NCBI GenBank assembly: GCA_943330235.2
Contig: CALQGY020000018.1
Location: forward strand, 1-43,234
Direction of reading: 5' to 3'
Length of the DNA: 43,234 nucleotides
Source: Candidatus Kuenenia stuttgartensis
GTDB taxonomy: Bacteria; Gemmatimonadota; Gemmatimonadetes; Gemmatimonadales; Gemmatimonadaceae
Within the stretch, counting starts at the first letter, position 1. Each line of letters begins with the position of its first letter. Positions 18,256 to 38,876 of this stretch are shown piece by piece. The notes under the pieces are model-generated. The model made no database searches and was not told the DNA's origin. It saw only the letters and a program-made list of their open reading frames with translations. Both the position numbers and the translations under genes were made by a program.

Positions 18256-18259
18256 GCAC

Positions 18260-21863: not shown

Positions 21864-23309
21864 ATGACGGGGCCGCTTCCTGCGGCGCCGACGTCGGCGT
21901 TCGCGCGTGGGCTGCAGTCGTTGTGGGGCGCGGCGTTCGTGGTGGGTGGATTCACCGCGGCGGCGAAGCTGGCGGCGTTGCTCAAGGACAGCCTCGTTGC
22001 CGCCCGCTTTGGTAATGGGGCGGAGCTTGACGCGTTCTTACTGGCGTTGGTGGTGCCGAGTTTTCTGATCAGTGTGGCGGCCGGCACGCTTCCCGCCGCG
22101 CTGACGCCTACGTATATCGCGGTGCGCGAGCAGGAGGGCGATACCGCGGCCCGCGTCCTCGCGCGCGCCGTCTTTGCCACCACGTTTCGATGGCTCTCCG
22201 TGCTGGCCGTGCTCGCGGGGATCATGTCGCTGGCGTACGGATGGTTGCCGGGAACGCATCTGGCTGCGACGACACGCACCATGTTGCCGCTGCTGGCGCT
22301 CTGGCTGGCGCCGTACACGCTGGTGCAGGGCGTCTGTGCCGCGTGGTCCGGCTTGCTGGCGGCGGAACGTGGCTATGCGATCAGTGCCATTGCGCCTATC
22401 GCGCAGCCGTTGGGGATGGCGTTGGCAATCGTGACCAGTAGCGCGTTGGGCGGCGCATCACTGGGCGCCGGTGTGCTGGTAATCGGATTACTGGGCGGTA
22501 CGCTTGTGCAAGGCGCGCTGTATGCCTGGGCGCTCCGATCTCGCGGCCTGCCGCTCATGGCGTGGACCGTGCCATCGCAACTCACCACCGCCACGCGCGA
22601 GGCGCTTGGGCGCGTACGCGCGCAGTATCTACCGGCCGTGGCGGGCGCCGTGCTCATGAGCGCGACCTCCGTCATCGATCAGACCATGGCCGCGTGGCTG
22701 CCATCGGGTAGCGTGTCGGCGCTGGGATTCGGCACGAAGTTGAGCGCGGTCATGATGAGCGTTGGGGCCATGGCCTTAAGCACGACGCTCTTGCCGCATT
22801 TGTCCGAGTTAGTGGCCCGTCGCCAATGGAAGGCGCTACGCGTGCTGGAGCGTCGCGTCGCGTTGGTCATTCTGGTCACCACGGTGCCGGTGACCATCGC
22901 GTGCATCGTGGCCGCAGAACCGATTGTCCGGCTGCTGTTCCAGCGCGGCGCGTTTACCAGCGCCGAAACGGTGACGGTGGCGAAGGTGCAATCCTCGTAT
23001 CTGCTGCAACTGCCCGTGCATCTCTTGGGCATTTTGTACGTGCGTCTGATCTCGGCGTTACAGGCCAACCGCCTACTGACGATAGGCTCGGCGGTGAATC
23101 TCGTGGTGAACATCGCACTGAATGTGCTGTTCATGCGCTGGTTCGGCGTAGCGGGCATCGCGCTCTCCACGGCTGGCGTGTACGCGGTGTCCTGCGTGTT
23201 TCTGGCCATCGCGTCGCACCGCCGACTAGCCGCGGCGGAACGCGAGTGGCCCACACCGGTGCCGGATGCACCACCCGCCGGGGAGGCACCGTGCGCATCT
23301 GCGGCGTGA
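21864..23309 (+). CDS. MurJ/MviN-family lipid-linked oligosaccharide flippase
   Basis: About 481 residues with roughly 13-14 membrane helices of the MOP superfamily, MurJ branch. The family pattern is seen in KLAALLKDSLVAARFGNGAELDAFLLALVVPSFLI (read as adjoining motifs of the first two helices) and in EPIVRLLFQRGAFT, a MurJ hallmark. It occupies the place where Wzx is expected in a Wzy-type locus, so it probably flips the undecaprenyl-linked repeat unit; a cell-wall lipid II role is the alternative. The start is uncertain: GTG at 21810 overlaps the previous stop (GTGA), and an ATG lies at 21864. Confidence 0.85.
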   Translation: MTGPLPAAPTSAFARGLQSLWGAAFVVGGFTAAAKLAALLKDSLVAARFGNGAELDAFLLALVVPSFLISVAAGTLPAALTPTYIAVREQEGDTAARVLARAVFATTFRWLSVLAVLAGIMSLAYGWLPGTHLAATTRTMLPLLALWLAPYTLVQGVCAAWSGLLAAERGYAISAIAPIAQPLGMALAIVTSSALGGASLGAGVLVIGLLGGTLVQGALYAWALRSRGLPLMAWTVPSQLTTATREALGRVRAQYLPAVAGAVLMSATSVIDQTMAAWLPSGSVSALGFGTKLSAVMMSVGAMALSTTLLPHLSELVARRQWKALRVLERRVALVILVTTVPVTIACIVAAEPIVRLLFQRGAFTSAETVTVAKVQSSYLLQLPVHLLGILYVRLISALQANRLLTIGSAVNLVVNIALNVLFMRWFGVAGIALSTAGVYAVSCVFLAIASHRRLAAAEREWPTPVPDAPPAGEAPCASAA

Positions 23310-24424
23310 TTGCCTCATTGGGCGCGGGCGGCGCTGAGCGCGTCATGGTGGAGCTGTGCGCGGCATGGCACGCGCGTGGTGACGCCGTCTCGCTGCTGAC
23401 GCTGGATGATGGTCGTAGCGACTTCTATGCGGCGCCGGCTGGTGTGCGTCGCGTGGCGCTTGACCTAGCCTCGGCAAGTGCGTCTGCAGCGGCGGCGTTG
23501 CGCGCGAATATCCGTCGCGTGCGAACGCTACGGCGCGCTCTGCGTACGGAGCGTCCGGATGTGATCGTGAGCTTCACCGATCGCACCAACGTGCTGGTGC
23601 TGATGGCCGCGCGCGGACTGGGCATTCCCGTGGTGGTCTCCGAGCGTATTGACCCGCGACGTCATGCGATCGGGCGGGCGTGGCACCTGCTCCGTCGCCT
23701 GCTCTATCCGTCTGCCGCCGCGCTGGTCGTGCAAACGGAAGCCGTGCGCGCGTGGGCCGAGGCCGTGCTGCCGGCTCATCGTGTGGCGGTAATTCCGAAT
23801 CCGCTGCGTCGCGCCTCCGTGGCGCTGAGCCCAGCGGGCACCCGTCCGAGCCAGATCACGGGCATGGGACGGCTGGTGGCGCAGAAGGGATTTGACGTCG
23901 CGATCGACGCGTTCGGCTTCATCGCGACGGCCTTCCCCGACTGGCAGCTGCGCATTTTCGGTGAGGGCCCCGACCGCGCATTGCTGCAGGCGCGCATTGA
24001 TGCCGGCGGGTTGGGCGGGCGCATCACGCTTTCGGGGCGTACCTCGACGGTGGACGCCGAGCTTGCCGCGTCATCTGTGTTTTTGCTGCCGTCGCGATAC
24101 GAGGGCTTTCCGAACGCGCTGCTCGAGGCGATGGCGCATGGGTGTGCGTGCGTTGCGACGACGTGCGACTCCGGACCAGCTGATCTTATCACCGACGGCG
24201 TGAGCGGTCGTTTGGTGCCCGTTGACGACGCCGCTGCGCTCGCCGCGGCGCTCACGTCGTTGCTACGCGATGCATCCGCCCGCTCGCGGATGGGGGCCGA
24301 AGCCATCGCCACGACGGAACGGTTTGCGCCGGCGACCGTGCTGCAGGCATGGGATCGCGTGTTCGCCTCGGTGGTCACCTCGGTGGTCACGTCGGTCGGC
24401 AGTCCTGCGCGGAGGGCCGCATGA
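23291..24424 (+). CDS. GT4 family glycosyltransferase
   Basis: A 377-residue GT-B enzyme that should transfer a sugar onto the lipid-linked repeat unit at the cytoplasmic membrane face. The N-domain begins VRICGVIASLGAGGAERVM with the acceptor-side GGAE motif; the C-domain has GMGRLVAQKGFD and a full EX7E motif (Glu271, Glu279 in EGFPNALLEAM). The start is a GTG with GGGGAGG upstream, overlapping the flippase gene by 19 bp. The C-terminus carries a duplicated SVVT encoded by a 12-bp repeat, beyond the conserved domain. Confidence 0.92.
   Translation: MRICGVIASLGAGGAERVMVELCAAWHARGDAVSLLTLDDGRSDFYAAPAGVRRVALDLASASASAAAALRANIRRVRTLRRALRTERPDVIVSFTDRTNVLVLMAARGLGIPVVVSERIDPRRHAIGRAWHLLRRLLYPSAAALVVQTEAVRAWAEAVLPAHRVAVIPNPLRRASVALSPAGTRPSQITGMGRLVAQKGFDVAIDAFGFIATAFPDWQLRIFGEGPDRALLQARIDAGGLGGRITLSGRTSTVDAELAASSVFLLPSRYEGFPNALLEAMAHGCACVATTCDSGPADLITDGVSGRLVPVDDAAALAAALTSLLRDASARSRMGAEAIATTERFAPATVLQAWDRVFASVVTSVVTSVGSPARRAA
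24368..24391 (+). repeat. 12-bp tandem repeat at the 3' end of the GT gene
   Basis: TCGGTGGTCACC then TCGGTGGTCACG and a partial third TCGGTCGG; encodes the duplicated SVVT near the C-terminus. Confidence 0.85.
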
Positions 24425-25773
24425 CGAGCGCCGTGATGCCCGATACGCTCGCTGTCACTGGTGAGGCCACCGGTGAGGCCACCGGTGAGGCCACGCGCGA
24501 TGACGGCTGGTCGATGGCCGCGCTGATGCGTACGGCCGCCATCGTGCTGGCGGTGCTCGTGCTGTTTTCCGGCGCGGGGGCGTGGGGGTGGAATGTCGGA
24601 CGGCTCCCAGTGCCGCCGCTCGCCACCATGGTGGTGGTCTTTGCCTGCGCCGCGGTGGCGGTGCTGCTGGATATCTCTCGGCTCGGCAGTGGGGTGATGT
24701 GGGGATGGGCCATCGCCAACGCCGTCGTGGCCATGACCGGGTTTCTCTGGTCCTCGGGGAGCGAGGACGCACTGCAGGAAGTGCGCACCCGCGTGCTCTC
24801 GTCGATGCAGCTCGTGGCGTATGTGGTGGTGCTGGCCGACCCGCGCGTACGCCGTGCGGCGCGTGTGGCGATCATCGTGTCGACGTTCGGGGCCATCGGC
24901 TTGAATTTGTGGGAGCTCACGCATCCCATGACGTTCAGTATCAGCCTCGGACGTTCGGCAGGATTTTACGTGAATCCGAACATTGCCGGTGCCGCACTGA
25001 TCGCGGGGATGCTGCTGGCGTTGCCGGCCGTCCCGGCGAAATTGCGCGAGCTGTACATGCTGGCCGTGGGCGTGGGCGTGTTCACCACCCTATCACGCGG
25101 CGCGATCCTCTGCTGGGCCATTGTCACCGTGTCGCTGCTGCTGTCGCGCGCCATCCGTGGCAAGCGCTTAATCGTGCTGACCGCCGCGGGCCTCGCGTTA
25201 GCGCTCTCGGTGGCCGGCGCGCTGCTGGCCAGCGGTCAACTTGGATATATCGGGGGCGGTGCCGAGCGCTTTGTGCGCCAACGCCTCTCCATTGGCAATT
25301 CGGAAGGGCTCAACGCTGATGTGAGTGCATCATCACGTTCGCATTTAGCGATGCATGCATTGGAAATGTTCGGTGAGCGGCCCTTTGCCGGTCACGGGAC
25401 GGGCGCGACCGTGATCTGGAACGAGCCCGAATCGACGCACAACATTTACGCCCGTCAGCTGGCCGAGTACGGTCTGTTTGGCGCATGGCTGGCGCCGCTG
25501 CTGCTGGTCCTGGGATTGCGCGCGGTGATGTCATCGGAGCATCAGGACGGCGACGCCGGCGATGAACCGATTCGCCGCGCCGTGGGCTTTGCCTTCATGC
25601 TGTTCGTGGCGCTCTGGGGGCTGTTCAGCCACAACGTCCTTGACGACCCCTTTGTTCTGATTGGCCTGGCGCTCATCGCGGCGGTGCCCTCGCGTGGCAT
25701 CGCCCGTGCGCCAGACAACGCGTTGCGCGCCGTGGCGCCGACCGTGTCTTCCCTTTCTCTTCCCTGCTCATGA
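24421..25773 (+). CDS. Wzy/WaaL-like O-antigen polymerase or ligase family protein
   Basis: A 450-residue polytopic membrane protein with about 10-12 hydrophobic helices. The large periplasmic loop motif near the C-terminal third (GHGTGATVIWNEPESTHNIYARQLAEYGLFG) is characteristic of the O-antigen ligase/polymerase Pfam family, including its conserved HN pair. Beside a Wzz-type protein and a flippase it is most likely the repeat-unit polymerase. The ATG overlaps the previous stop (ATGA). Residues 14-25 are a three-copy GEAT repeat in the cytoplasmic N-terminal tail. Confidence 0.85.
   Translation: MTSAVMPDTLAVTGEATGEATGEATRDDGWSMAALMRTAAIVLAVLVLFSGAGAWGWNVGRLPVPPLATMVVVFACAAVAVLLDISRLGSGVMWGWAIANAVVAMTGFLWSSGSEDALQEVRTRVLSSMQLVAYVVVLADPRVRRAARVAIIVSTFGAIGLNLWELTHPMTFSISLGRSAGFYVNPNIAGAALIAGMLLALPAVPAKLRELYMLAVGVGVFTTLSRGAILCWAIVTVSLLLSRAIRGKRLIVLTAAGLALALSVAGALLASGQLGYIGGGAERFVRQRLSIGNSEGLNADVSASSRSHLAMHALEMFGERPFAGHGTGATVIWNEPESTHNIYARQLAEYGLFGAWLAPLLLVLGLRAVMSSEHQDGDAGDEPIRRAVGFAFMLFVALWGLFSHNVLDDPFVLIGLALIAAVPSRGIARAPDNALRAVAPTVSSLSLPCS
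24460..24494 (+). repeat. 12-bp tandem repeat at the 5' end of the polymerase gene
   Basis: GGTGAGGCCACC in three copies (the third ends one base early), in frame, encoding GEAT-GEAT-GEAT in the hydrophilic N-terminal tail. Confidence 0.92.
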
Positions 25774-26825
25774 CTGCTTCCGCTCCCCACACCACTCTGG
25801 GACCGCTCGATCTGGTGCGCCTCATTCTGGCGCGCCGTCGACTGCTTATCGTCGCACCGGCCGCGGTCGCCGCTGCCGTGGTGATGGGCGGACTCTTTGC
25901 CGACCGCACATGGACGGCGGAGGGCGCGATGGTGCCGCAGGCGGCCGGCGGCAACGTCTCGCGGCTGGCGGGGCTGGCGGCGCAATTCGGCGTGGCCGTC
26001 CCCACCGGCGGTGGCGGTCAGAGCCCGGACTTCTACGCAGACGTGCTCCGGAGCGACGGGATGCTGCGCCGTCTGCTGGCAGCGAAGTACACCGACGCGG
26101 GCGGTCACCCGATCGATCTGATCAACAATCTCGTACCGTCCAGCGAGACGCCCGAGCGCCACGCCGAGTTCGCGCTGCGGGAATTGCGCAATCGCATCAG
26201 CACCTCGGTGGGTCTCAAGACCGGTATCGTGACGGTGCGCGTGCAGGTCACGGAGCCCGAGTTGGCGCGCGCCATCATTGAGCGCGCGATGGCCGAGCTG
26301 AACGCACTCAATGTGCTGGCGCAGCAGAACGTGGCCGCGCAGGAGCGCACGTTTACCGATGACCGGCTCGTGATTGCGCGTACGGAGTTGCGGCAGGCCG
26401 AAGATCGTCTCGAGGCCTTTCTGCGTGGCAACCGCACCATCTCCGGCGCACCGCAGCTGGTGTTGCAAGAGGAGCGCTTGCGGCGCGACGTCAGCCTGCG
26501 ACAGCAGGTGGTGGTGGGGCTCGCGCAGTCGTTAGAACAGTCGCGCATCGAAGAAGCGCGCAATGTGCCCGTGCTGTCCGTGGTGGAGGCGCCCGTGCGC
26601 CCGGCGCTGCCCGATAGTCGGAAGCTGGTCCTTAAGGGGCTGTTTGCAGCCATCGCGACCGGGACAGCGCTGATCGCGCTGCTCCTCGCGCTCGAATGGC
26701 GCCGACGGTTCAGCAGCAGCAGCCCGGAAGTGGCGGCCGAAGTGGAGCGGTTGGCCCGTGAGGCGGCGCAGGATTTCAAGCGCCCGTGGCGACTGCTGTC
26801 ACGGCGAAACCCACCCACGCCGTAG
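25770..26825 (+). CDS. Wzz-type chain-length determinant (polysaccharide co-polymerase)
   Basis: A 351-residue inner-membrane protein that should set chain length together with the polymerase. Topology is the family hallmark: a membrane helix near residues 24-44, a long periplasmic region with helical, coiled-coil-like character (about 170-270, rich in Glu, Arg, Gln), a Pro-rich PVRPALPDSRK motif before the second helix, and that helix at about 290-315. No cytoplasmic tyrosine kinase is attached, and no separate kinase or Wza-type outer-membrane exporter occurs in the window. The ATG overlaps the polymerase stop by four bases. Confidence 0.88.
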   Translation: MTASAPHTTLGPLDLVRLILARRRLLIVAPAAVAAAVVMGGLFADRTWTAEGAMVPQAAGGNVSRLAGLAAQFGVAVPTGGGGQSPDFYADVLRSDGMLRRLLAAKYTDAGGHPIDLINNLVPSSETPERHAEFALRELRNRISTSVGLKTGIVTVRVQVTEPELARAIIERAMAELNALNVLAQQNVAAQERTFTDDRLVIARTELRQAEDRLEAFLRGNRTISGAPQLVLQEERLRRDVSLRQQVVVGLAQSLEQSRIEEARNVPVLSVVEAPVRPALPDSRKLVLKGLFAAIATGTALIALLLALEWRRRFSSSSPEVAAEVERLAREAAQDFKRPWRLLSRRNPPTP

Positions 26826-26834
26826 TCACGTACC

Positions 26835-28040
26835 ATGACGCGCTCCCGCACGCGCCGCACGTCGCGCTGTGATCTGCTGCTGTTCCTCCCCTCGTTGCGG
26901 GGTGGAGGCGCGGAGCGCGCGTTGCTGGGCGTCGCGAACGCGTTGCATGTGCGGGGCGTGCGCGTGGTGCTGGTGCTCGCGCGTGCTGAGGGCCCGTATC
27001 TGGCCGAGGTCGCACCGGGGATGCCCGTGATTGATCTGCGGTCGGATCGCGTGAGCCGCTGCGTGCTCTCGCTGACGCGCGAGATTGTGCGCTGGCGTCC
27101 GCGCAGTGTGCTCAGTGCCATGCGTCATGCCAACGCGCTGCTGGTGGTCACCACTACGTTGGCACGACTGTTTGGTGTTCGACCCCGACTGGTGGTGAGT
27201 GAGCGCGGACACATGGCGGCGTTTCTCGCCACGGACCACTCGCCGCGGGCGGCGCGCGCCACTCGGCTGGGCGGGATGCTCTATCAGCGTGCCGATGCGA
27301 TCATCGCCGTGTCGGATGATCTCGCACAGCACGTACGCGACGAGCTCGGTGCGCGCTGTCCCAGCGTCGTGGCCATTCCCAATCCGACGATTACCGAGGA
27401 GCTGCTGCGCCAAGCCGCCGAGCCACCGCCGCATGCGTGGTACGGCCATCCGGACATCCCAGTGGTTGTCGCGGCCGGTCGCCTCTCGTCCGAGAAGGGC
27501 TTTGATGTGTTGCTGGAGGCGTTCGCGCACGTCGTGCGGCAGCGCGCGGCGCGACTGATCATTCTGGGCGCGGGGCCGCTGCTGGAGCCGCTGCGCGCGC
27601 AGGCGGCGCGCCTGCAGATTACAGCGCACGTGCACTTCCCCGGCTTCGTTCCGGAGCTGGGCGCGTGGTTGTCGCATGCGCAACTCTTCGTGCTCGCGTC
27701 GCGCGCGGAAGGGCTGCCCAATGTGCTCATTCAGGCCATGGCCTGCGGTGTTCCGGTGGTGAGTACCGACTGTCCCACGGGGCCGGCGGAGATTCTGGAG
27801 CACGGGCGATGGGGACCGTTGGTGCCGGTGGATGATATCGACGCGTTAGCGTCGGCCATGCGAACGGTGCTTGATACAGGCGCCCCCGCATTGCCGTCGC
27901 ACGTGCTCGCGCGCTTCCATCCCGCGCCGGTCGCGGCGCAGTATGCCGCGGTCCTCGGCATTCCCCTCGACGCCGACGTGTCATCGGCGTGTGTGAGCGA
28001 GCGCCGCGCGCCCGTCACGAGCACGGACGCGGTGGGCTGA
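26835..28040 (+). CDS. GT4 family glycosyltransferase with EX7Q
   Basis: A 401-residue GT-B enzyme. The N-domain starts CDLLLFLPSLRGGGAERALL; the C-domain has VAAGRLSSEKGFDVLLEAF and EGLPNVLIQAM. The latter is the EX7E site, but the second acidic residue is glutamine (Glu292, Gln300; codon CAG), a change that may weaken or alter donor handling. The rest of the fold appears intact. The ATG is 9 bases after the wzz-like stop, without a clear Shine-Dalgarno, and the next gene follows after one base. Confidence 0.9.
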   Translation: MTRSRTRRTSRCDLLLFLPSLRGGGAERALLGVANALHVRGVRVVLVLARAEGPYLAEVAPGMPVIDLRSDRVSRCVLSLTREIVRWRPRSVLSAMRHANALLVVTTTLARLFGVRPRLVVSERGHMAAFLATDHSPRAARATRLGGMLYQRADAIIAVSDDLAQHVRDELGARCPSVVAIPNPTITEELLRQAAEPPPHAWYGHPDIPVVVAAGRLSSEKGFDVLLEAFAHVVRQRAARLIILGAGPLLEPLRAQAARLQITAHVHFPGFVPELGAWLSHAQLFVLASRAEGLPNVLIQAMACGVPVVSTDCPTGPAEILEHGRWGPLVPVDDIDALASAMRTVLDTGAPALPSHVLARFHPAPVAAQYAAVLGIPLDADVSSACVSERRAPVTSTDAVG

Positions 28041-28041
28041 C

Positions 28042-31000
28042 ATGGCGCATGTCCTCATTGTCGGCGGTCTGGCGTCATCGCTGATTCGGTTTCGCGGACC
28101 GCTGATTGATGCGCTGCTGGACGCTGGTCATCAGGTCACCTGCGCGGCCGGCGAGCCGGAAGCGGCGACGGAGGCGGAACTACAGCGTCGCGGCGTCGCG
28201 TTTTATCCGCTGGCACTCGAGCGTGCGGGGACCAGCGTCCTCGCGGATCTGCACGCCGTGCGCGATATCATCGGCCTGCTCCGCCGGGTACGCCCCGATG
28301 TGATTTTCGGCTACACGGTCAAACCCGCGCTCTACAGCTGTCTGGCTTCGCGTATCACCGGCATCGGGCGTCCCTATGCGATGCTCACCGGGCTCGGGTA
28401 CGCGCTCACGCCGCAGGATGGTGCGCGCCGGCCGGGTGCGGCGATTGCGCGCGCGCTCGCGCGCATGGTGCTGCCGCGGGCGGCGCGCGTGTTCTTCCAC
28501 AACACCGACGACCAGCAGTTCTGCGAATCGCACGGGCTCATTCGGTCCACGCAGGGTCTCGTGGTGGATGGGTCGGGGGTGGATCTGGCATCGTTTCCGG
28601 AGGCGCCACTCCCCGACGGACCGATCACGTTCCTGTGCGTGGCACGTCTACTGCGCGACAAAGGCATCGAGGAGTTCGTAGAGGCCGCACGCGTGGTGCA
28701 CCGTCGCCATCCGAATACGCGCTTCCGTGTCGCCGGTGGGCGCGACGCCAACCCACGGTCGGTGACCGCCGAGCAGATCGCGGCGTGGGAGCGCGACAGT
28801 CCGGTTGAGTTCATCGGGCACATTGCGTCGCCGTGGCAGGAGTTTGCGGCCAGCCATGTCTTTGTGCTTCCGGCTACGGCGCGCGAAGGGCTGCCGCGCA
28901 CGTTGTTGGAGGCGATGGCGGTAGGACGCCCCGTGATCACGAGCGACCTGCCCGGCTGTCGCGATGCCATTCGTGACAACAACGGCCTGCTGGTCGCACC
29001 GCGGGACGTGGCTCAGCTGGCCGATGCCATGTCGCGGTTTGTTGAGACGCCGTCCATGATCGCGGCAATGGGTGCGCGCGGCCGAACACTGGCCGTCACG
29101 CGCTTCGATGCCCGACGGGTGGCGGCGGTGATGCTCGATGGCATGGACCTCTCGCGCACCGCGAACGCGAACGCGAACGCGCACGCGAACGCGCACGCGC
29201 ACGCGAACGCGGTGCGTCCGCGCATCCTTCACATCATCACCGGCTTGGGGACGGGCGGCGCCGAAGCGAGCCTCCTACGCCTGCTGCAGACGACGCGCGA
29301 CGTCGCCGACCATGCCGTCGTCTCGTTGACCACCACCGGGACACGCGGCAGCGCGATCAGCGCGCTCGGTGTGCCAGTGCACGCACTCGGTCTTGCTCGT
29401 GGCGCGATTGCCCCATCGGCCATCGGGCAGCTGCGTCGCATCACCCGCGACATCAAGCCGACGTGTGTGCAGGGGTGGATGTATCACGGCAATCTGGCGG
29501 CATCCGTCCTCGCGCTGTCCGGGGCCCCCACGGGCGCGGTCGTGTGGAACGTCCGTCACGCGCTGGATGCGTGGCAGCAGGAGTCGCGCACCTTACGCAC
29601 GCTGATTCGCGTGTCGGCGCTGTTCGCCCGTCAGCCGCGCGCCATCGTGTACAACAGTGAACGCGCCGCCCGCCAGCATGAAGCGCTGGGGTTTCCGTCA
29701 TCGGCGACGCGGGTGATTCCGAACGGCGTGGATACCGCGCGTTTTCATCCCGACCGCGACGACGGCGCACGACTGCGCGCGACGTTGGGGATTCCCGCGG
29801 ACGATTTTGTCGTTGGGATGATTGCCCGCGTAGACCCGCTGAAAGATCACGACACCTTCTTGGCCGCGGTCCAGTTACACGCGGCGATGGGCGACGCGGA
29901 GGTCGACGCGATGGGCGACGCGGATCATCCGACCACGTGGTACCTCCTTGCCGGCACCGACACAGCGGCGGGCACGGCCGAGAATCCGGGCGCGCTGGAT
30001 GCGCGCATCGCGGTGCTCGCCCGGACGGATCACGCGGCTGCCACGCCATCGCTCGCCAGCCGCGTGATCCGTCTGGGCGAACGGCGTGATATCCCGGCGG
30101 TGATGAACGCCTGCGATGTCGTGACCATGTCGTCGCGAAGCGAGGGCAGCCCGAACGCAGTCGCTGAAGCGATGGCGTGCGGCGTGCCGTGCGTCGTGAC
30201 CGATGTCGGCGATGCGGCGGCGCTGGTTGGTGAGAGTGGCCTGGTCGTGCCCGTGGGCGACGCCGCAGCGATCGCGCGCGCGTGGAGCACGTTGCGCGCC
30301 GATCACGCATCACGCCACCATCGCGGGGCGGCCGCGCTCGACCGCATTCGCGCGCGCTACACCGCACAGGTCGAAGCGGAGAGCTATACGGACGTGTGGC
30401 GTGGCGCACCGGTGGAGCACGACGCACGGGCCCGTATGTCTTTACGTGCGCCTTCACGTGCGTCTTCACCTGCGTCTTCACCTACGCCGCGCGTCTTGAT
30501 GGTCAGCACCGTCAGCGTCACCCTACGGGCGTTTCTGCTGCCGTTCGCGGAGCACTTCCGGGCACGGGGCTGGCAGGTGGACGGCATGGCGTCCGGGGCC
30601 GCGACGGATTCGGCACTCGGGTCCCACTTCGACCAGCTCATTGACGTGACCTGGACGCGCAATCCGCTCCACCCGCGGAACCTCGCGGCGGCGCGACAAA
30701 TCCGGGCGCTCGTCCGCGCGACGCATTACGATCTGATTCATGTGCATACACCGGTTGCTGCGTTCGTCACACGATTCGCCCTGCGTGGTGATCGCGCACG
30801 CGGCCCGAAGATTGTGTATACCGCGCACAGTTTCCACGCCGACCGCAGTGCGTCTCGCTGGAAGAATTGGGTGTTCCGCTCGCTCGAGCGTCTTGCGGCG
30901 CAGTGGACCGATCATCTGGTCGTGCTCAATCGCGCCGATCGTGATCTCGCCCGCCAGGACCGGCTGGTGCCGGACGCGCGACTGCACTGGCATCCGGGCA

Positions 31001-31707
31001 TCGGCGTGGATGTCGATCAGTACCGCCCCGCGACGGCCCTCGAGCGCGCGCACACGCGCGCGACACTCGGGATTCCCGACGGCACCGCGCTCATCACGGT
31101 CGTCGCGGAGTTCACGCTCAACAAGCGCCAGCGCGACGTGATCGACGCCATGCAGCTGCGGCAGCGGCACGGCCTCGCGCTCCCCATCGTGCTCTTCATC
31201 GGTGACGGCGCGACACGCGAGGCCCTCGAGGCTCGGGTCCACGCGTTGGATTTGTCGGCCCATATTCGCTTTCTCGGATTCCGTCCGGATGTCCCTCAGC
31301 TGGTCGGAGCAAGTGACGCGCTGATGCTCACCTCCGCCCGTGAGGGACTCCCGCGCTGCATTCTCGAAGCGCAGGCGATGGAGACGCCGGTGATCGGGAG
31401 TGATGCCAAGGGGACTGCCGACTTGCTGGCGGACGATCGCGGACTGCTCTATCCGGTCGGCGATGTCGCCGCACTGGCGGCGGCCATCGATACCGTGATC
31501 GCGCACCCCGAGGCCGCGCGCGCCCGCGCGCAGCACGCGGGCGCTTGGGTGCGCGCGAACTGTGGACTCCCGCACCTTATTGCCCTGCACGAGACGCTCT
31601 ACCACGACGTCCTCGGGGACCTCGCCGCGCGCGACGGCCTTCGCTCGTCCGGCATGCCGGCCGATACTGTTCAGCAGGGGTCCCGTCCACGCCTTTATTC
31701 GTCATGA
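28042..31707 (+). CDS. Three-domain glycosyltransferase: GT4-GT4-GT4 tandem fusion
   Basis: A single 1221-residue frame with three complete GT-B glycosyltransferases. Domain 1 (about 1-372) resembles PglA/CapM-type enzymes (RFRGPLIDALLDAGHQV, GYTVKPALYS; EX7E Glu282/Glu290). Domain 2 (about 391-790) begins RPRILHIITGLGTGGAEASL, with Glu701/Glu709. Domain 3 (about 816-1200) begins PRVLMVSTVSVTLRAFLLPF and resembles EpsD-type enzymes (YTAHSFHADRS; Glu1101/Glu1109). The linkers are low-complexity products of tandem repeats: (AN/AH)n at 374-390 and an R/A/S/P stretch at about 801-815. An ATG at 30436 could be the old start of domain 3. All three active sites look intact, so it may add three successive sugars. 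Confidence 0.9.
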   Translation: MAHVLIVGGLASSLIRFRGPLIDALLDAGHQVTCAAGEPEAATEAELQRRGVAFYPLALERAGTSVLADLHAVRDIIGLLRRVRPDVIFGYTVKPALYSCLASRITGIGRPYAMLTGLGYALTPQDGARRPGAAIARALARMVLPRAARVFFHNTDDQQFCESHGLIRSTQGLVVDGSGVDLASFPEAPLPDGPITFLCVARLLRDKGIEEFVEAARVVHRRHPNTRFRVAGGRDANPRSVTAEQIAAWERDSPVEFIGHIASPWQEFAASHVFVLPATAREGLPRTLLEAMAVGRPVITSDLPGCRDAIRDNNGLLVAPRDVAQLADAMSRFVETPSMIAAMGARGRTLAVTRFDARRVAAVMLDGMDLSRTANANANAHANAHAHANAVRPRILHIITGLGTGGAEASLLRLLQTTRDVADHAVVSLTTTGTRGSAISALGVPVHALGLARGAIAPSAIGQLRRITRDIKPTCVQGWMYHGNLAASVLALSGAPTGAVVWNVRHALDAWQQESRTLRTLIRVSALFARQPRAIVYNSERAARQHEALGFPSSATRVIPNGVDTARFHPDRDDGARLRATLGIPADDFVVGMIARVDPLKDHDTFLAAVQLHAAMGDAEVDAMGDADHPTTWYLLAGTDTAAGTAENPGALDARIAVLARTDHAAATPSLASRVIRLGERRDIPAVMNACDVVTMSSRSEGSPNAVAEAMACGVPCVVTDVGDAAALVGESGLVVPVGDAAAIARAWSTLRADHASRHHRGAAALDRIRARYTAQVEAESYTDVWRGAPVEHDARARMSLRAPSRASSPASSPTPRVLMVSTVSVTLRAFLLPFAEHFRARGWQVDGMASGAATDSALGSHFDQLIDVTWTRNPLHPRNLAAARQIRALVRATHYDLIHVHTPVAAFVTRFALRGDRARGPKIVYTAHSFHADRSASRWKNWVFRSLERLAAQWTDHLVVLNRADRDLARQDRLVPDARLHWHPGIGVDVDQYRPATALERAHTRATLGIPDGTALITVVAEFTLNKRQRDVIDAMQLRQRHGLALPIVLFIGDGATREALEARVHALDLSAHIRFLGFRPDVPQLVGASDALMLTSAREGLPRCILEAQAMETPVIGSDAKGTADLLADDRGLLYPVGDVAALAAAIDTVIAHPEAARARAQHAGAWVRANCGLPHLIALHETLYHDVLGDLAARDGLRSSGMPADTVQQGSRPRLYSS
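29161..29211 (+). repeat. 6-bp tandem repeat forming linker 1 of the triple glycosyltransferase
   Basis: GCGAAC and GCGCAC hexamers, about 8.5 units, encode alternating Ala with Asn or His (17 residues). The frame is kept and no stop arises in it. Confidence 0.95.
29884..29924 (+). repeat. 24-bp period duplication inside GT domain 2
   Basis: GCGATGGGCGACGCGGA occurs at 29884 and again 24 bases later, encoding AMGDAE then AMGDAD in a surface-loop-like segment (about residues 615-628). Confidence 0.8.
30442..30486 (+). repeat. 12-bp tandem repeat forming linker 2 of the triple glycosyltransferase
   Basis: Units CGTGCGCCTTCA, CGTGCGTCTTCA and CCTGCGTCTTCA plus a partial copy encode RAPS-RASS-PASS-PT between domains 2 and 3. 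Confidence 0.92.
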
Positions 31708-32321
31708 CCGCATCGCTCGCTCTTAAGCGCCTGTTCGACGTGACGGTCAGCGCCATCGCGCTGGTGTGTTTCGCGCCGGTGCTCCTCGTGGTCGGCGTCT
31801 TGGTGCGCGCGCGCCTAGGGACGCCGGTTTTGTTCCGTCAGCAGCGCCCAGGGCTCGGCGGCCAACCGTTCATGCTGGTGAAATTCCGCACCATGCGCGA
31901 CGCCACCGATGCGCACGGCCGACCGCTGGACGATGCCGAGCGATTGACGCCGTTCGGGCGACGCTTGCGGGCGACCAGCCTGGACGAGCTACCGGAACTC
32001 TGGAACGTGCTGCGCGGTGACATGTCGCTGGTGGGCCCGAGGCCCTTGCTGATGGAATACCTGCCGCGCTACTCGGCGGAGCAGCGGCGACGGCATGACG
32101 TTCGCCCGGGGATCACCGGTTGGGCGCAGGTCAACGGCCGCAATGCGTCGTCATGGGATGAGCGGTTTGCACACGATGTGTGGTACGTGACACACCGCTC
32201 GTTCGCGCTGGATCTGCGCATTCTGTTTCGGACCGTCCGTCAGGTATTCGTGGCCGAGGGGATTGAACAGCCGGGACACGTCACCATGCCGCGATTCACC
32301 GGCCGCCCGGAGGGTCGATGA
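31704..32321 (+). CDS. PglC-like phosphoglycosyl transferase (initiating sugar transferase)
   Basis: A 205-residue monotopic membrane enzyme that moves sugar-1-phosphate from a UDP-sugar to undecaprenyl phosphate, the first membrane step. It has the re-entrant hydrophobic N-terminal helix (residues 9-34), KFRTM (60-64), the catalytic Asp-Glu dyad (Asp94-Glu95 in SLDELPELWNVLRGDMSLVG, read across two motifs), GPRPL and RPGITGWAQVNGRN. The short single-domain form and the PglD- and PglE-like genes immediately downstream point to PglC. The ATG overlaps the preceding stop (ATGA). Confidence 0.93.
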   Translation: MTASLALKRLFDVTVSAIALVCFAPVLLVVGVLVRARLGTPVLFRQQRPGLGGQPFMLVKFRTMRDATDAHGRPLDDAERLTPFGRRLRATSLDELPELWNVLRGDMSLVGPRPLLMEYLPRYSAEQRRRHDVRPGITGWAQVNGRNASSWDERFAHDVWYVTHRSFALDLRILFRTVRQVFVAEGIEQPGHVTMPRFTGRPEGR

Positions 32322-32974
32322 GCACGCCCCCGATCCCCATCGTGGTCTACGGCACCGGTGGTCATGGACGTGAAACGATGCTGCTCATCGACGCCATGAT
32401 CGCGTCGGGCGCGCCCTTTGAGGTGCTGGGGTACCTCACCGATGACGTCGCGCTGCACGGCACGCAGGTGGGCACCGTGCCCGTGCTGGGCGACGCCTCC
32501 GTGCTGGCCGCGCGCGCCGGCGAGATCGACGTGGCTATGGGGATTGGCAACCCGCGTACGCGTCGGGCGATTGTCGAGCGACTTCGCGGTCAGGCGCGCG
32601 CCTTTCCCGTGCTCGTCCACCCGTCGGTGCCACGTTTTGATCGCGTCACCGTGGGCGAGGGCACCCAGCTGCACGCGGGCACGATTCTCACCACGGATAT
32701 CGTGCTTGGAGCGTTCGTGATTCTCAATCGTCATGTGGATGTGAGTCACGATTGCCGCGTCTCCGACTGGGCCACGCTGGCACCGGCCGTGACGCTGACG
32801 GGAGGAGTGTCCGTGGGCGAGGGGGCCGATCTCGGCGCGCGAGCGACGTGTATCCCACGAGTGCGCGTGGGCGATTGGAGTGTGATTGGTGCCGGCGCCG
32901 TAGTTACGCGCGATATTCCCGATGGTGTCACCGCGGTTGGCGTTCCCGCTCGTTCACTTGGTAAGGTTTCCTGA
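32318..32974 (+). CDS. PglD/NeuD-type sugar O/N-acetyltransferase
   Basis: A 218-residue enzyme with an N-terminal Rossmann-like UDP-sugar-binding part (VVYGTGGHGRETMLLI) and a C-terminal left-handed beta-helix of hexapeptide repeats (for example VTVGEGTQLHAGTILTTD, VSVGEGADLGARA, VRVGDWSVIGAGAVVTRDIPDG). The catalytic His is expected in NRHVDVSHDC. In PglD the enzyme N-acetylates the C4 amine of a UDP-4-amino sugar, fitting its place between the phosphoglycosyl transferase and the aminotransferase. The ATG overlaps the previous stop by four bases. Confidence 0.92.
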   Translation: MSTPPIPIVVYGTGGHGRETMLLIDAMIASGAPFEVLGYLTDDVALHGTQVGTVPVLGDASVLAARAGEIDVAMGIGNPRTRRAIVERLRGQARAFPVLVHPSVPRFDRVTVGEGTQLHAGTILTTDIVLGAFVILNRHVDVSHDCRVSDWATLAPAVTLTGGVSVGEGADLGARATCIPRVRVGDWSVIGAGAVVTRDIPDGVTAVGVPARSLGKVS

Positions 32975-32975: not shown

Positions 32976-34166
32976 ATGACTGCTCGCATCTTCCTGTCTC
33001 CGCCGCATCTGGGCGATGATGAACTGGCGCTGGTCACCGAGGCCTTCCGCACCAACTGGATTGCCCCTGTCGGACCGCACGTTGATGCCTTCGAACGCGA
33101 GATCGCGGCGTACGTCGACACGCCGCACGCGGTGGCGCTGAGTTCGGGGACCGCGGCGCTGCACATGGCGCTGGTGGCCTTGGGCATCGGCGAGGGGGAT
33201 GCGGTGTGGGTGAGCACGCTCACCTTTGCGGCCAGCGCCTTTCCCATTCGCTACGTCGGTGCCACGCCGGTGTTCGTGGATAGCGCGCGCGATACGTGGA
33301 ACATGGACCCGGCGTTACTGGCTGAAGCGCTTGATGACGCGGCCATGCGTGAGACGCTGCCGCGCGCTGTGGTCGTCGTGCATCTGTACGGACAGTGCGC
33401 CGACATGGATCCGATTGTCGAGGCCTGTGCGCGCCACGGGGTGCTGCTCATTGAGGACGCCGCTGAAGCGCTTGGCGCGAAATACAAGGGACGCGCGGCC
33501 GGCACGTTCGGTGACGTTGGCTTCTATTCGTTCAACGGCAACAAGATCATCACCACGTCCGGCGGCGGTATGCTCGTCACGCGGCACGACGACGTCGCGA
33601 CGCGCGTGCGCTACCTCGCCACGCAGGCCCGAGAGCCTGTGTCGCACTACGAGCACGCGCACATCGGCTACAACTATCGGCTCAGCAACGTGCTCGCCGG
33701 GATCGGTCGCGGACAATTGCGCGTGCTGGAGCAGCGCGTCGCATCGCGGCGTGCGGTGTTCGCGCGCTACGTGGACGGATTGCGTGATCTGCCAGGCCTG
33801 TCGTTCATGCCGGAAGCGACCTTCGATTCCGACGAGAGCCGCGCCAACCGTTGGCTCACGGTGATCACGCTTGACCGCCACGACTTCGGCAGCGATCCGG
33901 AAACGGTGCGGCTGGCGCTCGAGGCCCTGAACATCGAGTCACGGCCGGTCTGGAAACCCATGCATCAGCAGCCGGTCTTCCGGCGCGGCGATTCGATTGG
34001 TGGCAGCATCGCGGACGATCTCTTCGCGCACGGCCTCTGCTTACCCAGCGGATCGTCGCTCACGACCGCCGATCAGGACCGGGTCATTGCCGCCGTTCGG
34101 GCCGCGTGCCGACCGCCACTCACCGCGTCGCATCGTACCGAACAGGGCGAGCTCTCGGCCGTCTAA
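32976..34166 (+). CDS. DegT/DnrJ/EryC1/StrS aminotransferase (PglE-like)
   Basis: A 396-residue PLP enzyme that should aminate a UDP-4-keto-6-deoxy sugar using glutamate. The cofactor lysine is Lys190 in [15 protein letters not shown]; other signatures are [21 protein letters not shown] and [27 protein letters not shown] is typical of the PglE/PseC-like branch. It begins one base after the acetyltransferase stop. The 4,6-dehydratase that makes its substrate (PglF-type) is not in the window. It is the last gene of the operon; a 15-bp repeat follows. Confidence 0.93.
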
Positions 34167-34184
34167 GGCACGGCGGCCGCGCGC

Positions 34185-34313
34185 CTCGCTGCTGCGCCCC
34201 TCGCTGCTGCGCCCCTCGCTGCTGCGCCCCTCGCTGCTGCGCCCCTCGCTGCTGCGCCCCTCGCTGCTGCGCCCCTCGCTGCTGCGCCCCTCGCTGCTGC
34301 GCGCGTCGCTGCT
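34185..34313. repeat. 15-bp tandem repeat, about 8.5 copies, between convergent genes
   Basis: Seven identical CTCGCTGCTGCGCCC units, an eighth ending GCGCGC, and a partial ninth. It occupies the gap between the aminotransferase stop and the stop of the convergent gene, whose last codons it touches. Because 15 is a multiple of three it is open in several frames on both strands, so loss of either stop codon would append a repetitive tail. Confidence 0.97.
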
Positions 34314-35175
34314 ACCAGTACAGCCCGACGGAACGCACACCATCGGCGCGCATGACCAGCGCGGGGCCGGGCAACCGGACTTCGTGCAGGACGTGCTTGA
34401 CGCGACGCCAGACGGGATTGGATCCCGGCAAACGCTCGGCGTCGAGGTCGAGGCCCAGCACGTAGTCGCTGGTGGCGCCATGCCCGTAGGCCCGACGCCC
34501 GAGGGAGACGCGCACCGGCGCCGGCCAAGCCTTGGCGAGCGACGTCGGCATCATGTCATGCACGCTGGCCGACAGCCACACGGTCTGATTGGCGTAGTTC
34601 GTCAGCGCACCACGCATCCCCTGCGCGCCGGTGAACGCCGCCGGGGCGACCGAGAACGTAGGGGTCAGATGCCGGAGCGCCGGGACGTACGCCTGCGCGA
34701 CCGCATAGCCAGCACCCATCGCGTCCACGGCGAGGTCTACGCGGCTGAAGCCGTTGTACCAGCCGTCGGAGACTTCTTTCGCCAAGCCAAGGGCCAACGC
34801 CGCGCCCGCGCCGCGGAGTGCGCCAAGGCGCCGCGAGGTGGACGACAGACAGCCCATGCCGCCGAGATTGCGCGCCATGTGGTATGAGCCCAGTCCGTGC
34901 AGATGCGAGCTGGGGTCGGCGAGTACGGCAGCGCGATTGGGCTCCTGCGCCATGTGCCAGGCGCCTTCATGCCGCATCGAGTCGTATTCAATCCCGGTGG
35001 CGATGGCCGCCGCAGCGGCCTGCAGCCCGACGCGGGACACCGTAATGGACGCGGCGCAGTCGGTCCGCTGGGCCAGCAGGGACGACGGCGCGCCGAGGAG
35101 CGAGGCCACGATGACGATGGCGGTCACGACGCTGCGCGGCGTTACTGCCTGCCGATTCCGCTGGATCGCCCGCAT
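34312..35175 (-). CDS. Exported DUF2279-like envelope protein
   Basis: A 287-residue protein with an N-terminal signal (hydrophobic residues about 16-35, AQR cleavage region). The middle segment, [16 protein letters not shown] followed by [19 protein letters not shown], follows the pattern of DUF2279/YfiM-type envelope proteins, which have KE, D and an acidic later helix at those positions; the preceding [15 protein letters not shown] also fits. The function of that family is unknown. The ATG has GTGGAG upstream. It lies convergent to the polysaccharide operon and has its own sigma-54 type promoter, so it may take part in the same process, but that is inference. Confidence 0.7.
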
Positions 35176-35235
35176 GTCGTCTCCACTGAGGTCGCGTCTG
35201 CGAGATACTCCTCGCCCCGTTACTCGGGAGGAACC

Positions 35236-35250
35236 GCAATGGTTGTGCCA
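35236..35250 (-). promoter_or_regulatory. Sigma-54 type (-24/-12) promoter, perfect core
   Basis: Minus-strand TGGCAC-AACCA-TTGC matches the RpoN core exactly. Transcription would start near 35224, about 50 bases before the ATG of the DUF2279-like gene. A small inverted repeat GTCAC-CAGT-GTGAC at 35268-35281 lies just upstream. The rest of the 303-bp gap (35176-35478) shows no gene that I can support. Confidence 0.7.
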
Positions 35251-35478
35251 GCCACGTGTCGGAAGTGGTCACCAGTGTGACGGCGCGTGCGGCCCCCTGG
35301 GCCGAACAGCGCGATGCCTAGAGAATGACAGCGGCAGGAGCCGGCAGCGTGACGAATGTGCCGCTGGCGTGACGCTCGCCGAACGCCTCGCGAGCCCCGC
35401 CCGCGGCCATCCGGGCGACAGGCCAACGGATAGCGGCTCCGACCGCGCACCGATGCTACAACGTGTGGCGCACGCGCC

Positions 35479-36204
35479 TCACTTCGGTGTCGTTTTCAGA
35501 GTCCCGCGCGCAACCACCGCAAAGCCCACCAGAAACACGAGCGCGAAGCCGAACCACTGCATGGCGTACGACTGGTGGGGGCCTTCGCTCAGCGACGGGG
35601 GCGGGACTCGCGCCGGGCGCACGACATCACGCGTGACGGTATCCCCGAGCGCCAGCAGCACGACGGGGAGCAGCGGGCGCCCCACCATGGCCTGCAGGGT
35701 GTCGCGATCCAGCAAGCGTAGCGCCCGTGCCGACGTGGGCGAGCGCACCGCCCCCTGTTGCGGGGGCGGATAGGCCGTGACCAGCGCGTCAATGGTGAGC
35801 GTGTCGCCCTCACGAGCTTTGTCGAAGTCCACGGTTCGGCCATCGGCGGCGGCGAGGAAGCCTCGCAGCAGCAGCACAGCGGTATCCCCCCATCCCGGAT
35901 CGATCGGGCGCAACGGCGTCAGCAGATAGACACCAGGCGCGCCCGACTGCGAGCGCGACGACTGCACCATCTCGTGCTCATAGTCGGCGACCGCGTGCAT
36001 CGTCACGCGATGCCAGTGGGTGGCACTGGTATCGCTCTGGCGAAGCGCCGACATGCTCAGCGCAGGAAGCGTCCCACGCGCGAGCACCAGCGCATTCTTG
36101 GCGCGACGCTGTGACAGCCGCTCGAGTTGCCAGAACCCCAAGCGCACGCACAGCGCCACCGCACACGCGGCCAACAGCCCAAACAAGAACAGACGCTTTT
36201 TCAT
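35479..36204 (-). CDS. SURF1 family cytochrome oxidase assembly protein
   Basis: A 241-residue inner-membrane protein assisting heme-copper oxidase assembly. The family pattern is complete: N-terminal helix followed by RLGFWQLERLSQR, VYLLTPLRPIDPGWGDTAVLLLRGF in the periplasmic domain (read as two adjoining motifs), and the C-terminal SEGPHQSYAMQWFGFA leading into the second helix. Length is normal. Its ATG overlaps the stop of the branching-enzyme gene (ATGA), an unexpected partner; no other oxidase gene is in the window. Confidence 0.92.
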   Translation of the reverse strand: MKKRLFLFGLLAACAVALCVRLGFWQLERLSQRRAKNALVLARGTLPALSMSALRQSDTSATHWHRVTMHAVADYEHEMVQSSRSQSGAPGVYLLTPLRPIDPGWGDTAVLLLRGFLAAADGRTVDFDKAREGDTLTIDALVTAYPPPQQGAVRSPTSARALRLLDRDTLQAMVGRPLLPVVLLALGDTVTRDVVRPARVPPPSLSEGPHQSYAMQWFGFALVFLVGFAVVARGTLKTTPK

Positions 36205-38876
36205 GCGATCAGATCGGTAGCAGAACGCGTGGGCAACAACGCCTCCGCAGTGGATGGCTTGCCCTTCTTCGGCCTCGCCTTCGTCTTCGCCTTCGGCTTC
36301 GTCTTCGGCTTCGTCTTCGTCTTCGGCTTCGGCTTCGTCTTCGCCTTCATCTTCGCCTTCTCCTCAGCCTTGGCTCTCGCCTTCGCTTTCGCCTTAGCCT
36401 TCGCCTTGGCTTTCGCCTTACTCACACTATCCTGCGCCACCGGCACCAACGCCGCCTCAGCGCCCTCCCCAAGCACCGTCTCCGCTCGCGTCGCCACACC
36501 CACCGGACGTCGCGGCCGCGCCGGAAGCAGTGGCCCGCGCGATGCAGAAACCGGCGCCTCCGCAGAACCCGACGGCGACGGCAACCGCGGCGGTCGCTTC
36601 GCGCGCACGCCGTCCGCCAACGCCATCGGATGCTCGCTCATGCGCACACCCTCCTCGGGCAGCAACACCAGCATCGCCAACGGCGGCAACGTGATCGTGA
36701 GCGACTGCGGAAATCCGTGATACGCCTCCGCGCCGGTCTCCACGGCAGCATCGGTGACATAGCCGCTGCCGCCGAATTCGGGCGCATCGCTGTTCAGGGC
36801 CAACCGGTAACGTCCCGCCATCGGCGCCCCAATGCGATAATCGTCGCGGGGCACCGGCGTCAGGTTCATCACGATGATCGCGTGCGACGAGCCGTCAAAC
36901 CGCGCGTACGAGAGGACCGACTGCTCCTTGTCCGCCACGTCGATCCACGCGAATCCTGATGGATCGTGATCATGACGCCAGAAGCACGAGGACGCCCCGT
37001 AGAGCGCACCCGCGGCGGCGACGAACGACTCCAGGCCGCGGCGGCTCGGATCGTCGAGCAGCTCCCACTCGAGGCTCACGTCGTGATTCCACTCGCGCCA
37101 TGACCCCAGTTCAACGCCCATGAAGAACAGCGATTTACCAGGGCGCGTGATGGAGTACCCAATGAGCGTGCGCAGATTCGCGAGGCGCTGCCACTCATCG
37201 CCCGGCATCTTGCGCAACAACGATCCCTTGAGGTGCACGACTTCATCGTGCGACAACGGATTCACAAATCGCTCGCTGTACTCATACATCATCGCGAACG
37301 TCAGCTTGTCGTGCGCACCCTTCCGGAAGAACGGGTCGACCTTGTAGTAGTCGAGGGTGTCGTGCATCCACCCCATGTTCCACTTGAAGGTGAAGCCCAA
37401 TCCGCCATCGGCAATGGGGTGCGTGACCTTAGGCCACGTAGTGCTTTCCTCAGCAATGGTCACCACACCCTGGTGCAGTGCATGCACGGTGTGATTCAGC
37501 TGTTTGAGGAACGCGACCGCTTCGAGATTCTCGCGCCCGCCGTGACGGTTGCGAAGCCACTGCCCCGCCTCGCGGCCGTAGTCGAGATACAGCATCGATG
37601 CGACGGCATCGACGCGTAGGCCGTCGAGGTGAAACTCCTCGATCCAGAACAGCGCGTTCGCGAGCAGGAAATTGCGCACTTCATGACGCGCACAGTTGAA
37701 GATGTGCGTGCCCCACTCGGGATGATCACCAAGACGCGGATCTTCATGCTCGTAGCACGCCGTGCCGTCGAAGCGACGCAGCGCCCAGTCATCCTTGGGG
37801 AAATGCGCCGGCACCCAATCCAGCAGCACACCGACACCGGCCTGGTGCAGCGTGTCGACGAAAAACCGGAAATCATCCGGTGACCCGTGGCGCGACGTCG
37901 GCGCGAAATAGCCGCCCACCTGATAGCCCCACGACCCGCCGTACGGATGCTCCAGAATGGGCAGCAACTCCACGTGCGTGAAGCCCAGTCGATTGACATG
38001 GGCCGCCAGCAACGGCGCCAGTTCGCGATACGACAACTCGAGGCCGTCCGCCCCGCGACGCCATGAGGCCAGATGCACCTCGTACACGAGCATCGGTTCG
38101 GCGACCGGATCACTGTCCGCACGACGCGCCATCCAGTCGGCGTCGTTCCACGCGTAGGTACCGCGGCGCTCCACGATGGACGCATGCCCCGTGGACTGCT
38201 CCATCTTGAAAGCCAGCGGATCGGTCTTGACGCGAATGGCACCACCAGGCGCGCAGATCTCGAACTTATACAGCGCGCCGGTAGTCACGCCGGGGACAAA
38301 GATCTCAAAGACGCCGCTACTACCGAGGGCGCGCATGGGATGGGCATGACCATCCCATGCGTTGAACGGGCCCACCACCGACACCCGCAGCGCATTGGGC
38401 GCCCACACAGCGAAGGAAGTGCCCTCCACACCATCGATGACGCGCGGCTGTGCCCCCAGCTTCTCCCACAGCCGGAGATGTCGGCCCTCGCCGTAGAGAT
38501 GCAGATCGACATCGCCGAGCGTGGGCAGGAACCGATACGGATCGTCGAACGTGCGTTCGGTGCCGTCGCTGAACGCCGCGACCAACCGATACGCGAGCGG
38601 TAGCGTCTCGCCGGCGACAAACCGCACGAAGAGCGCATCCTGCACGCAGTCCATGGGGAGCCGTTCACCATTGAGTTCCATCCAGAGCTGCGTCGCCTTG
38701 GGCACGCGCGCGCGGATGACTACGCCGCTCACGCCATCAAGCGCCGCCGGATGCGCGCCGAGGACGTCATGCGGCGTGCGGAGCTCCCCGTGCAGCAGTG
38801 CCGAGATCGCGTCGCGCGGCACAAGCGCCACCGACGGACGAGCCTCCCCCGACCACGCGTTCTCCGAATCAGTCAT
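36201..38876 (-). CDS. glgB: 1,4-alpha-glucan branching enzyme with Lys/Ala/Pro-rich tail
   Basis: Introduces alpha-1,6 branches into glycogen. 891 residues against about 730 usual. Order: N-terminal beta module (about 25-125), CBM48 (about 130-225), GH13 barrel, C-terminal beta domain ending near 738. The nucleophile is Asp423 in GLRVDAVASM, the acid/base Glu476 in TIAEEST, and NPLSHDEVVH holds the third acidic residue. From about 740 a disordered tail begins; residues 820-870 are almost purely Lys with Ala, Pro, Thr and Arg, encoded by hexamer repeats. The tail is in frame before a normal end that couples to SURF1. The ATG has no leader: TAGCTT lies six bases upstream. Confidence 0.95.
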   Translation of the reverse strand: MTDSENAWSGEARPSVALVPRDAISALLHGELRTPHDVLGAHPAALDGVSGVVIRARVPKATQLWMELNGERLPMDCVQDALFVRFVAGETLPLAYRLVAAFSDGTERTFDDPYRFLPTLGDVDLHLYGEGRHLRLWEKLGAQPRVIDGVEGTSFAVWAPNALRVSVVGPFNAWDGHAHPMRALGSSGVFEIFVPGVTTGALYKFEICAPGGAIRVKTDPLAFKMEQSTGHASIVERRGTYAWNDADWMARRADSDPVAEPMLVYEVHLASWRRGADGLELSYRELAPLLAAHVNRLGFTHVELLPILEHPYGGSWGYQVGGYFAPTSRHGSPDDFRFFVDTLHQAGVGVLLDWVPAHFPKDDWALRRFDGTACYEHEDPRLGDHPEWGTHIFNCARHEVRNFLLANALFWIEEFHLDGLRVDAVASMLYLDYGREAGQWLRNRHGGRENLEAVAFLKQLNHTVHALHQGVVTIAEESTTWPKVTHPIADGGLGFTFKWNMGWMHDTLDYYKVDPFFRKGAHDKLTFAMMYEYSERFVNPLSHDEVVHLKGSLLRKMPGDEWQRLANLRTLIGYSITRPGKSLFFMGVELGSWREWNHDVSLEWELLDDPSRRGLESFVAAAGALYGASSCFWRHDHDPSGFAWIDVADKEQSVLSYARFDGSSHAIIVMNLTPVPRDDYRIGAPMAGRYRLALNSDAPEFGGSGYVTDAAVETGAEAYHGFPQSLTITLPPLAMLVLLPEEGVRMSEHPMALADGVRAKRPPRLPSPSGSAEAPVSASRGPLLPARPRRPVGVATRAETVLGEGAEAALVPVAQDSVSKAKAKAKAKAKAKARAKAEEKAKMKAKTKPKPKTKTKPKTKPKAKTKARPKKGKPSTAEALLPTRSATDLIA
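36259..36420 (-). repeat. 6/12-bp degenerate repeat encoding the GlgB tail
   Basis: Plus strand is a run of CTTCGNC-type hexamers (CTTCGG, CTTCGT, CTTCGC, CTTGGC); on the coding strand it gives alternating Lys codons with Ala, Thr or Pro. Purine/pyrimidine asymmetry is strong, with nearly all Lys codons AAG. Confidence 0.9.

Follow-up and report, generated by a model that had tools for sequence, protein, structure and literature searches.

An open reading frame joining three GT4 glycosyltransferase units in a Wzx/Wzy-type operon of a Gemmatimonadaceae genome, and its probable stepwise fusion origin

Proteins that carry several glycosyltransferase (GT) modules in one chain are already known. 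WbdA of Klebsiella pneumoniae O5 has three GT modules, one per linkage type, and WbbB of K. pneumoniae O12 combines three GT modules (GT99, GT102 and GT103) in a single polypeptide, two of which polymerise while one terminates (PMC11231755). WsaE of Geobacillus stearothermophilus is described as a trifunctional protein with two GT domains (PMC2943079). Here we analyse a 43,234-nucleotide stretch (the window; contig 18, CALQGY020000018.1) of a Gemmatimonadaceae draft genome (GCA_943330235.2; 4.02 Mb, 223 contigs, 91.6% complete), probably a metagenome-assembled genome, in which one open reading frame (ORF) encodes three complete GT4 units. The unusual feature is that one chain encoded in a Wzx/Wzy operon unites three full GT4 units that differ in type. 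This combination looks new; we found no three-GT4 fusion among the open-licence papers listed, as far as titles and the starts of abstracts indicate.

The ORF occupies 28042–31707 on the forward strand and runs uninterrupted from ATG to TGA over 1221 residues. We name its GT4 units, from N to C terminus, D1 (28042–29157, residues 1–372, PglA-like), D2 (29212–30435, GGAE-type, with the GTG of residue 391 as its first codon) and D3 (30487–31704, PglA/BshA-like). The Pfam families Glycos_transf_1, Glyco_trans_1_4, Glyco_transf_4 and Glyco_trans_4_4 each match three stretches along the chain, and each third, scanned separately as the initial annotation had proposed, matches both an N-terminal and a C-terminal GT4 domain with scores higher than the gathering cut-offs. 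A GT4 C-domain profile, partly derived from D1–D3 themselves, gives three full-length matches in the chain (186, 184 and 151 bits). The EX7E glutamates lie exactly where they had been placed, at E282/E290 in D1, E701/E709 in D2 and E1101/E1109 in D3. The claim of three complete GT-B/GT4 units read in one frame is thereby confirmed. The nearest solved sequence is PglA of Campylobacter concisus (8dqd) for both D1 (115 bits) and D3 (about 70 bits), and Alr3699/HepE for D2; PglA, an enzyme known for transferring GalNAc to Und-PP-diNAcBac, is a single unit, unlike the three-unit chain, and is likened to D1 and D3 by sequence only.

In a first whole-chain alignment (A2), D1-type rows shared 15–22% identity with the query, which suggests that they had been aligned with the wrong units; this alignment was discarded, and D1 and D2 were therefore aligned separately. 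E282/E290 is invariant in all 25 rows of the D1 alignment (A3; the window and 24 of 44 D1-like candidates), and the same holds for E701/E709 in the 24 rows of the D2 alignment (A4; the window, L051 and 22 of 93 D2-like candidates). The R-x4-K motif, which we take to be the GT4 donor-site pair, is R202/K207 in D1 and R596/K601 in D2, and its position in D3 reads E1023/K1028. Glutamate at this position is common to the nearest clade of D3, formed by the congeners G029 and G014 and the cyanobacterial L088, and the more distant L078 has arginine; Glu1023 looks like a clade trait rather than decay. The units had been called apparently active: each does have its EX7E motif, and the activity of all three is predicted from motifs only, with the arginine of R-x4-K replaced in D3.

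A structural model of D2–D3 shows two confident GT-B units with a mean predicted local distance difference test score (pLDDT) of 87.6, connected by a linker (400–422) with pLDDT below 50. In Foldseek, this model best matches single-unit enzymes, among them HepE, PglA and BshA; only one alignment is long, that with the Cps3D multienzyme, and its root-mean-square deviation is 17.8. The GT-B fold is thus indicated by model and Foldseek for D2 and D3, and by sequence for D1. The low-pLDDT linker, a predicted template modelling score (pTM) of 0.57 and the single-unit Foldseek matches fit units that are probably independent enzymes tethered by flexible linkers.

Pairwise identity among D1, D2 and D3 is 19–25%. 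In a single tree of 69 GT4 units, D3 is sister to the D3 of G029 and G014, and D2 to the D2 of G029, G014 and a third congener, G019, both with starred support. D1 is placed in a 15-row clade from other phyla, with identity of at most 44%, and a wider clade of 21 rows, also starred, unites the D1- and D3-type units. Because the units are so dissimilar and fall in different supported clades, they were brought together by fusion, as the initial annotation maintained; triplication of one gene is excluded by their mutual identity and by the closer relatives that each unit has elsewhere.

The same annotation spoke of a fusion of three neighbours. The fusion stands, but a joint fusion of three neighbouring genes does not. 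G029 (a single-contig genome) and G014 encode D2–D3 as a single protein, 813 and 863 aa long respectively, without D1. These are orthologous two-unit GT4 proteins in the same operon, 51–55% identical to the source protein per unit, and the gene order around them is AsnB, Wzx, GT4_a, Wzy, another GT, a homologue of the gene that starts at 25770 in the window (g25770), D2–D3, PglC, PglD and DegT. They are also the only two-unit proteins among 258 GT4 C-domain ORFs from 97 loci (L039–L130 and L137–L141, with some duplicates; L051 repeats G014, and a split match in L053 was not counted). Since two congeners already have D2–D3 as a single protein, and the two units show the same branching pattern in the tree, the fusion was probably stepwise, D2–D3 being older and D1 having joined only in the source genome. 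G007 has D2 as a gene of its own, which overlaps a different GT4 gene by 4 bases, with PglC following. G019 was dropped as proof of a separate D2, as transposase-type ORFs follow and the gene end may be secondary; these ORFs, transposase- and IS21-helper-type as assigned by eye, lie at 2332–6214 of L041, 3' of the G019 D2.

Whole-protein searches of related genomes returned matches in 5/30 genus genomes (E 1e-40 or better), 6/179 family genomes (at E 1e-60) and 13/395 phylum genomes (at E 1e-55). The three sets overlap and each counts the source genome itself; up to 23 candidates per genome were scored in the genus set, the best three in the family set and the best two in the phylum set. Among the matches listed, D1 and D2 were covered by one match only in the source genome's own protein. 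The idea that relatives always keep the units separate, which would point to an assembly error here, fails for D2–D3, and may still hold for D1–D2. Where separate D1- and D2-type genes adjoin, D2 precedes D1 in 16 pairs (15 contigs) and follows it in 2, so that the usual order of the separate genes is the opposite of that in the three-unit ORF.

Linker 1 (29160–29211) is an in-frame hexamer repeat (CGCGAA, 8.7 copies) that encodes Ala-Asn/His, and linker 2 (30436–30486) contains a 12-mer repeat of 3.7 copies (30438–30481). A third in-frame array, a 12-mer in three copies at 29889–29924, is an insertion within D2 relative to four genus homologues. The D2–D3 proteins of G029 and G014 lack the 6- and 12-base repeats of the source protein, and no 12-base arrays were found in the regions of these two genomes. 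Tandem arrays reach a density of 3.24 per 10 kb in the window vs 1.00 in each of those two regions; of eight further regions measured, L046 exceeds the window (6.03 per 10 kb) and L049 comes close to it (3.01). D1 ends approximately at the C-terminal end of its standalone homologues and D2 begins approximately at the start of its own, so that little except the repeat lies between them. Repeat growth is a plausible cause of the fusion. Further arrays occur elsewhere in the window: a 15-mer in nine copies (97% match) directly after the DegT aminotransferase gene (34179–34313), an array of the hexamer CTTCGC (25.5 copies, 76% match) at 36267–36419 within a GlgB-type branching-enzyme ORF (36201–38876, reverse strand), and 14-base arrays, whose unit is not a multiple of three, near ORF ends at 7069–7156, 8769–8828 and 10128–10172.

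A repeat at join 1 could also mean that D2–D3 is real and the D1–D2 join results from a mistake in assembly or consensus, D1 being a separate upstream gene. In favour of this, join 1 is a low-complexity hexamer array known from a lone assembly of 223 contigs, and several other junctions of the operon are stop/start overlaps. However, a copy-number error in a 6-base unit preserves the frame. Frame 0 is free of stops from 27994 to 31705, and the next stops of the other two frames past join 1, at 29327 and 29658, lie 115 and 446 bases into D2, so that a simple indel gives no normal gene end; third-position GC content is high on either side of both joins. We regard such an error as unlikely. Alternatively, the full chain could be accompanied by shorter products from internal starts, the fusion being only partial at the protein level. 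The in-frame GTG at 29212 (residue 391) and ATG at 30436 (residue 799) stand about where standalone units would begin, but by eye no purine-rich Shine-Dalgarno-like stretch is seen near either of them, the D2 GTG included. Several other operon starts also have no clear one. We think that internal initiation is quite improbable.

The three-unit ORF belongs to a tight forward-strand gene cluster that includes an NAD-dependent sugar epimerase/dehydratase (17239–18255) and a UDP-glucose/GDP-mannose dehydrogenase (18125–19564, real start probably further in). An asparagine-synthase-type amidotransferase (19891–21813) and a MurJ/MVF-type flippase in the Wzx role (21729–23309, real start probably further in) follow, and then come a PglH-like GT4 gene (GT4_a, about 23246–24424, start approximate), a Wzy_C/O-antigen-ligase-type polymerase (24349–25773, starting at 24349 or 24421) and a protein at 25770–26825 that is weakly BexC/CtrB/KpsE-like (31.8 bits, far under the family cut-off) and probably acts as a chain-length/export co-polymerase. 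A second GT4 gene, GT4_b (about 26835–28040), lies immediately upstream of the three-unit ORF; the two separate GT4 genes are those that the initial annotation had noted. Downstream are a PglC/WcaJ-type initiating sugar-phosphate transferase (PF02397; 31704–32321, the ATG at 31704 being the last start ahead of the Pfam domain), which overlaps the three-unit stop as ATGA, a NeuD/PglD-type sugar acetyltransferase (32318–32974) and a LegC/PseC-like DegT-family aminotransferase (32976–34166). Three operon junctions, this one included, are ATGA overlaps, and a fourth is possible before Wzy. A PglF-type frame (PF02719, 780 aa) elsewhere in the source genome makes a diNAcBac-like first sugar possible. 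Recent transfer of GT4_b and D1 was considered and rejected, there being no signal in base composition (GC 0.62–0.69 in the operon genes measured, 0.69 in GT4_b and 0.68 in D1). Beyond the aminotransferase, a 339-aa ORF at 34754–35773 has no Pfam or NCBIfam match.

By Pfam, the operon thus holds an initiating transferase (PF02397), MurJ, Wzy_C and GT4s together, as expected of a Wzx/Wzy-dependent pathway, and the Pfam scan of 19 ORFs in the region revealed no ABC exporter. This bears on whether the protein might be a WbdA-type processive polymerase that makes a whole chain rather than a repeat-unit assembler. Its three GT modules per chain do resemble those of WbdA in K. pneumoniae O5; WbdA, which in O3 too has several modules, polymerises mannose in an ABC-transporter pathway (PMC11231755). 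In contrast, the three-unit ORF lies beside Wzx- and Wzy-type genes, its units belong to different GT4 groups, and two of them have PglA as their nearest solved relative. We consider a WbdA-type role very improbable. WbbB of O12 likewise has three modules, which are of GT99, GT102 and GT103, and WsaE differs in having a methyltransferase as its third domain and in depending on ABC export (PMC2943079).

The order of fusion had been suggested to set the order of sugar addition. We compared the GT4 ORF immediately 5' of PglC-like ORFs, the slot that D3 occupies here. Among 31 PglC-like ORFs, 11 have a GT4 in this slot, six of D1 type and five of D3 type (9 distinct contigs), and none of the 11 is of D2, GT4_a or GT4_b type. 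Some matches in this set are weak: D1 at 84 bits in L042 and L054, which are one contig, and D3 at 72 bits in L067. In Campylobacter, PglA adds the sugar that follows that of PglC. Both the presence of D1- and D3-type units in this slot and the place of PglA directly after PglC favour D3 acting first and D2 next, an order opposed to the N-to-C order first proposed. D1-like genes beside PglC in other phyla leave room for D1, which might be the unit that acts first, D3 then acting at another point.

Taken together, these data make it probable that the ORF encodes a genuine three-unit GT4 enzyme belonging to a Wzx/Wzy operon, of two-step fusion origin, with tethered units and a D3-then-D2 order as the most likely one. 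PglC, by its family, would begin synthesis by transferring a sugar phosphate to undecaprenyl phosphate; D1, D2 and D3 would then extend the lipid-linked chain by one sugar each, D3 most likely acting first and D2 second, and D1 together with the separately encoded GT4_b and GT4_a would finish the repeat unit ahead of flipping and polymerisation. An older, genus-level D2–D3 fusion would have come first; later, in this lineage, the end of a PglA-like gene (D1) would have been joined to the start of D2 through the in-frame hexamer repeat. The sequences themselves show the open frame, the three complete units with their motifs, the operon, the two-unit protein of the congeners and the repeat linkers. 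The activities, sugars, order of addition, evolutionary direction and benefit of tethering are all inferred here. Several observations weigh on the other side. The D1–D2 join is found in 1/30 genus, 1/179 family and 1/395 phylum genomes, in each case the source genome's own, and in a single assembly (223 contigs). Twenty of the 31 PglC-like ORFs have no GT4 in range, and the loci were retrieved by similarity to this protein, so that slot counts cannot be taken as unbiased. A D1-like gene lies within 300 bases of PglC in 6/39 loci with a D1-like ORF above 150 bits, which would favour D1 rather than D3 as the first unit to act. In D3, Glu1023 stands in place of the arginine of D1 and D2, and the pTM of the model, which covers D2 and D3, lends no support to a fixed arrangement of the units. 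A fuller scheme, in which the protein is a tethered Wzx/Wzy assembly line for consecutive repeat-unit sugars, translationally coupled to, and perhaps docked on, PglC, working in C- to N-terminal order and created by repeat growth that fused neighbouring genes, is rather unlikely in its entirety.

If the join is real, the two-unit proteins of the congeners and the three-unit protein described here would form a natural series on GT joining, in which the speed, fidelity and order of Wzx/Wzy repeat-unit assembly could be compared. In-frame tandem repeats at gene junctions would offer a possible route to such fusions. The protein provides three GT4 units for the study of glycan synthesis, and no new type of enzyme.

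Multi-GT proteins recur in this genus. Two congeners encode GT2+GT4+GT4 proteins by Pfam and profile, with three GT modules in one chain, G004 at 2575–6918 of L148 (1447 aa) and G001 at 2583–7040 of L149 (1485 aa); they differ from the three-unit ORF in module types and in locus, and no polysaccharide family was found in five ORFs neighbouring them. In 8 of 29 congeners, with 143 PF00534 matches, the frames with a double match are those of 822 aa (D2–D3) and 958 aa in G029 and of 1455 aa in G004. The source genome has another protein, of 729 aa, with two GT4-like stretches; this recurrence is drawn from it together with the GT2+GT4+GT4 and D2–D3 proteins. GT4 domains are also joined to other enzymes: an asparagine-synthase-type amidotransferase in a 985-aa protein of the congener G028 (L152, 3942–6899), and a WecA-type initiating transferase (PF00953) joined to a D2-like GT4 in a 728-aa protein of Uliginosibacterium (L100, 12908–15094), with a protein in L108 that looks comparable in length and arrangement.

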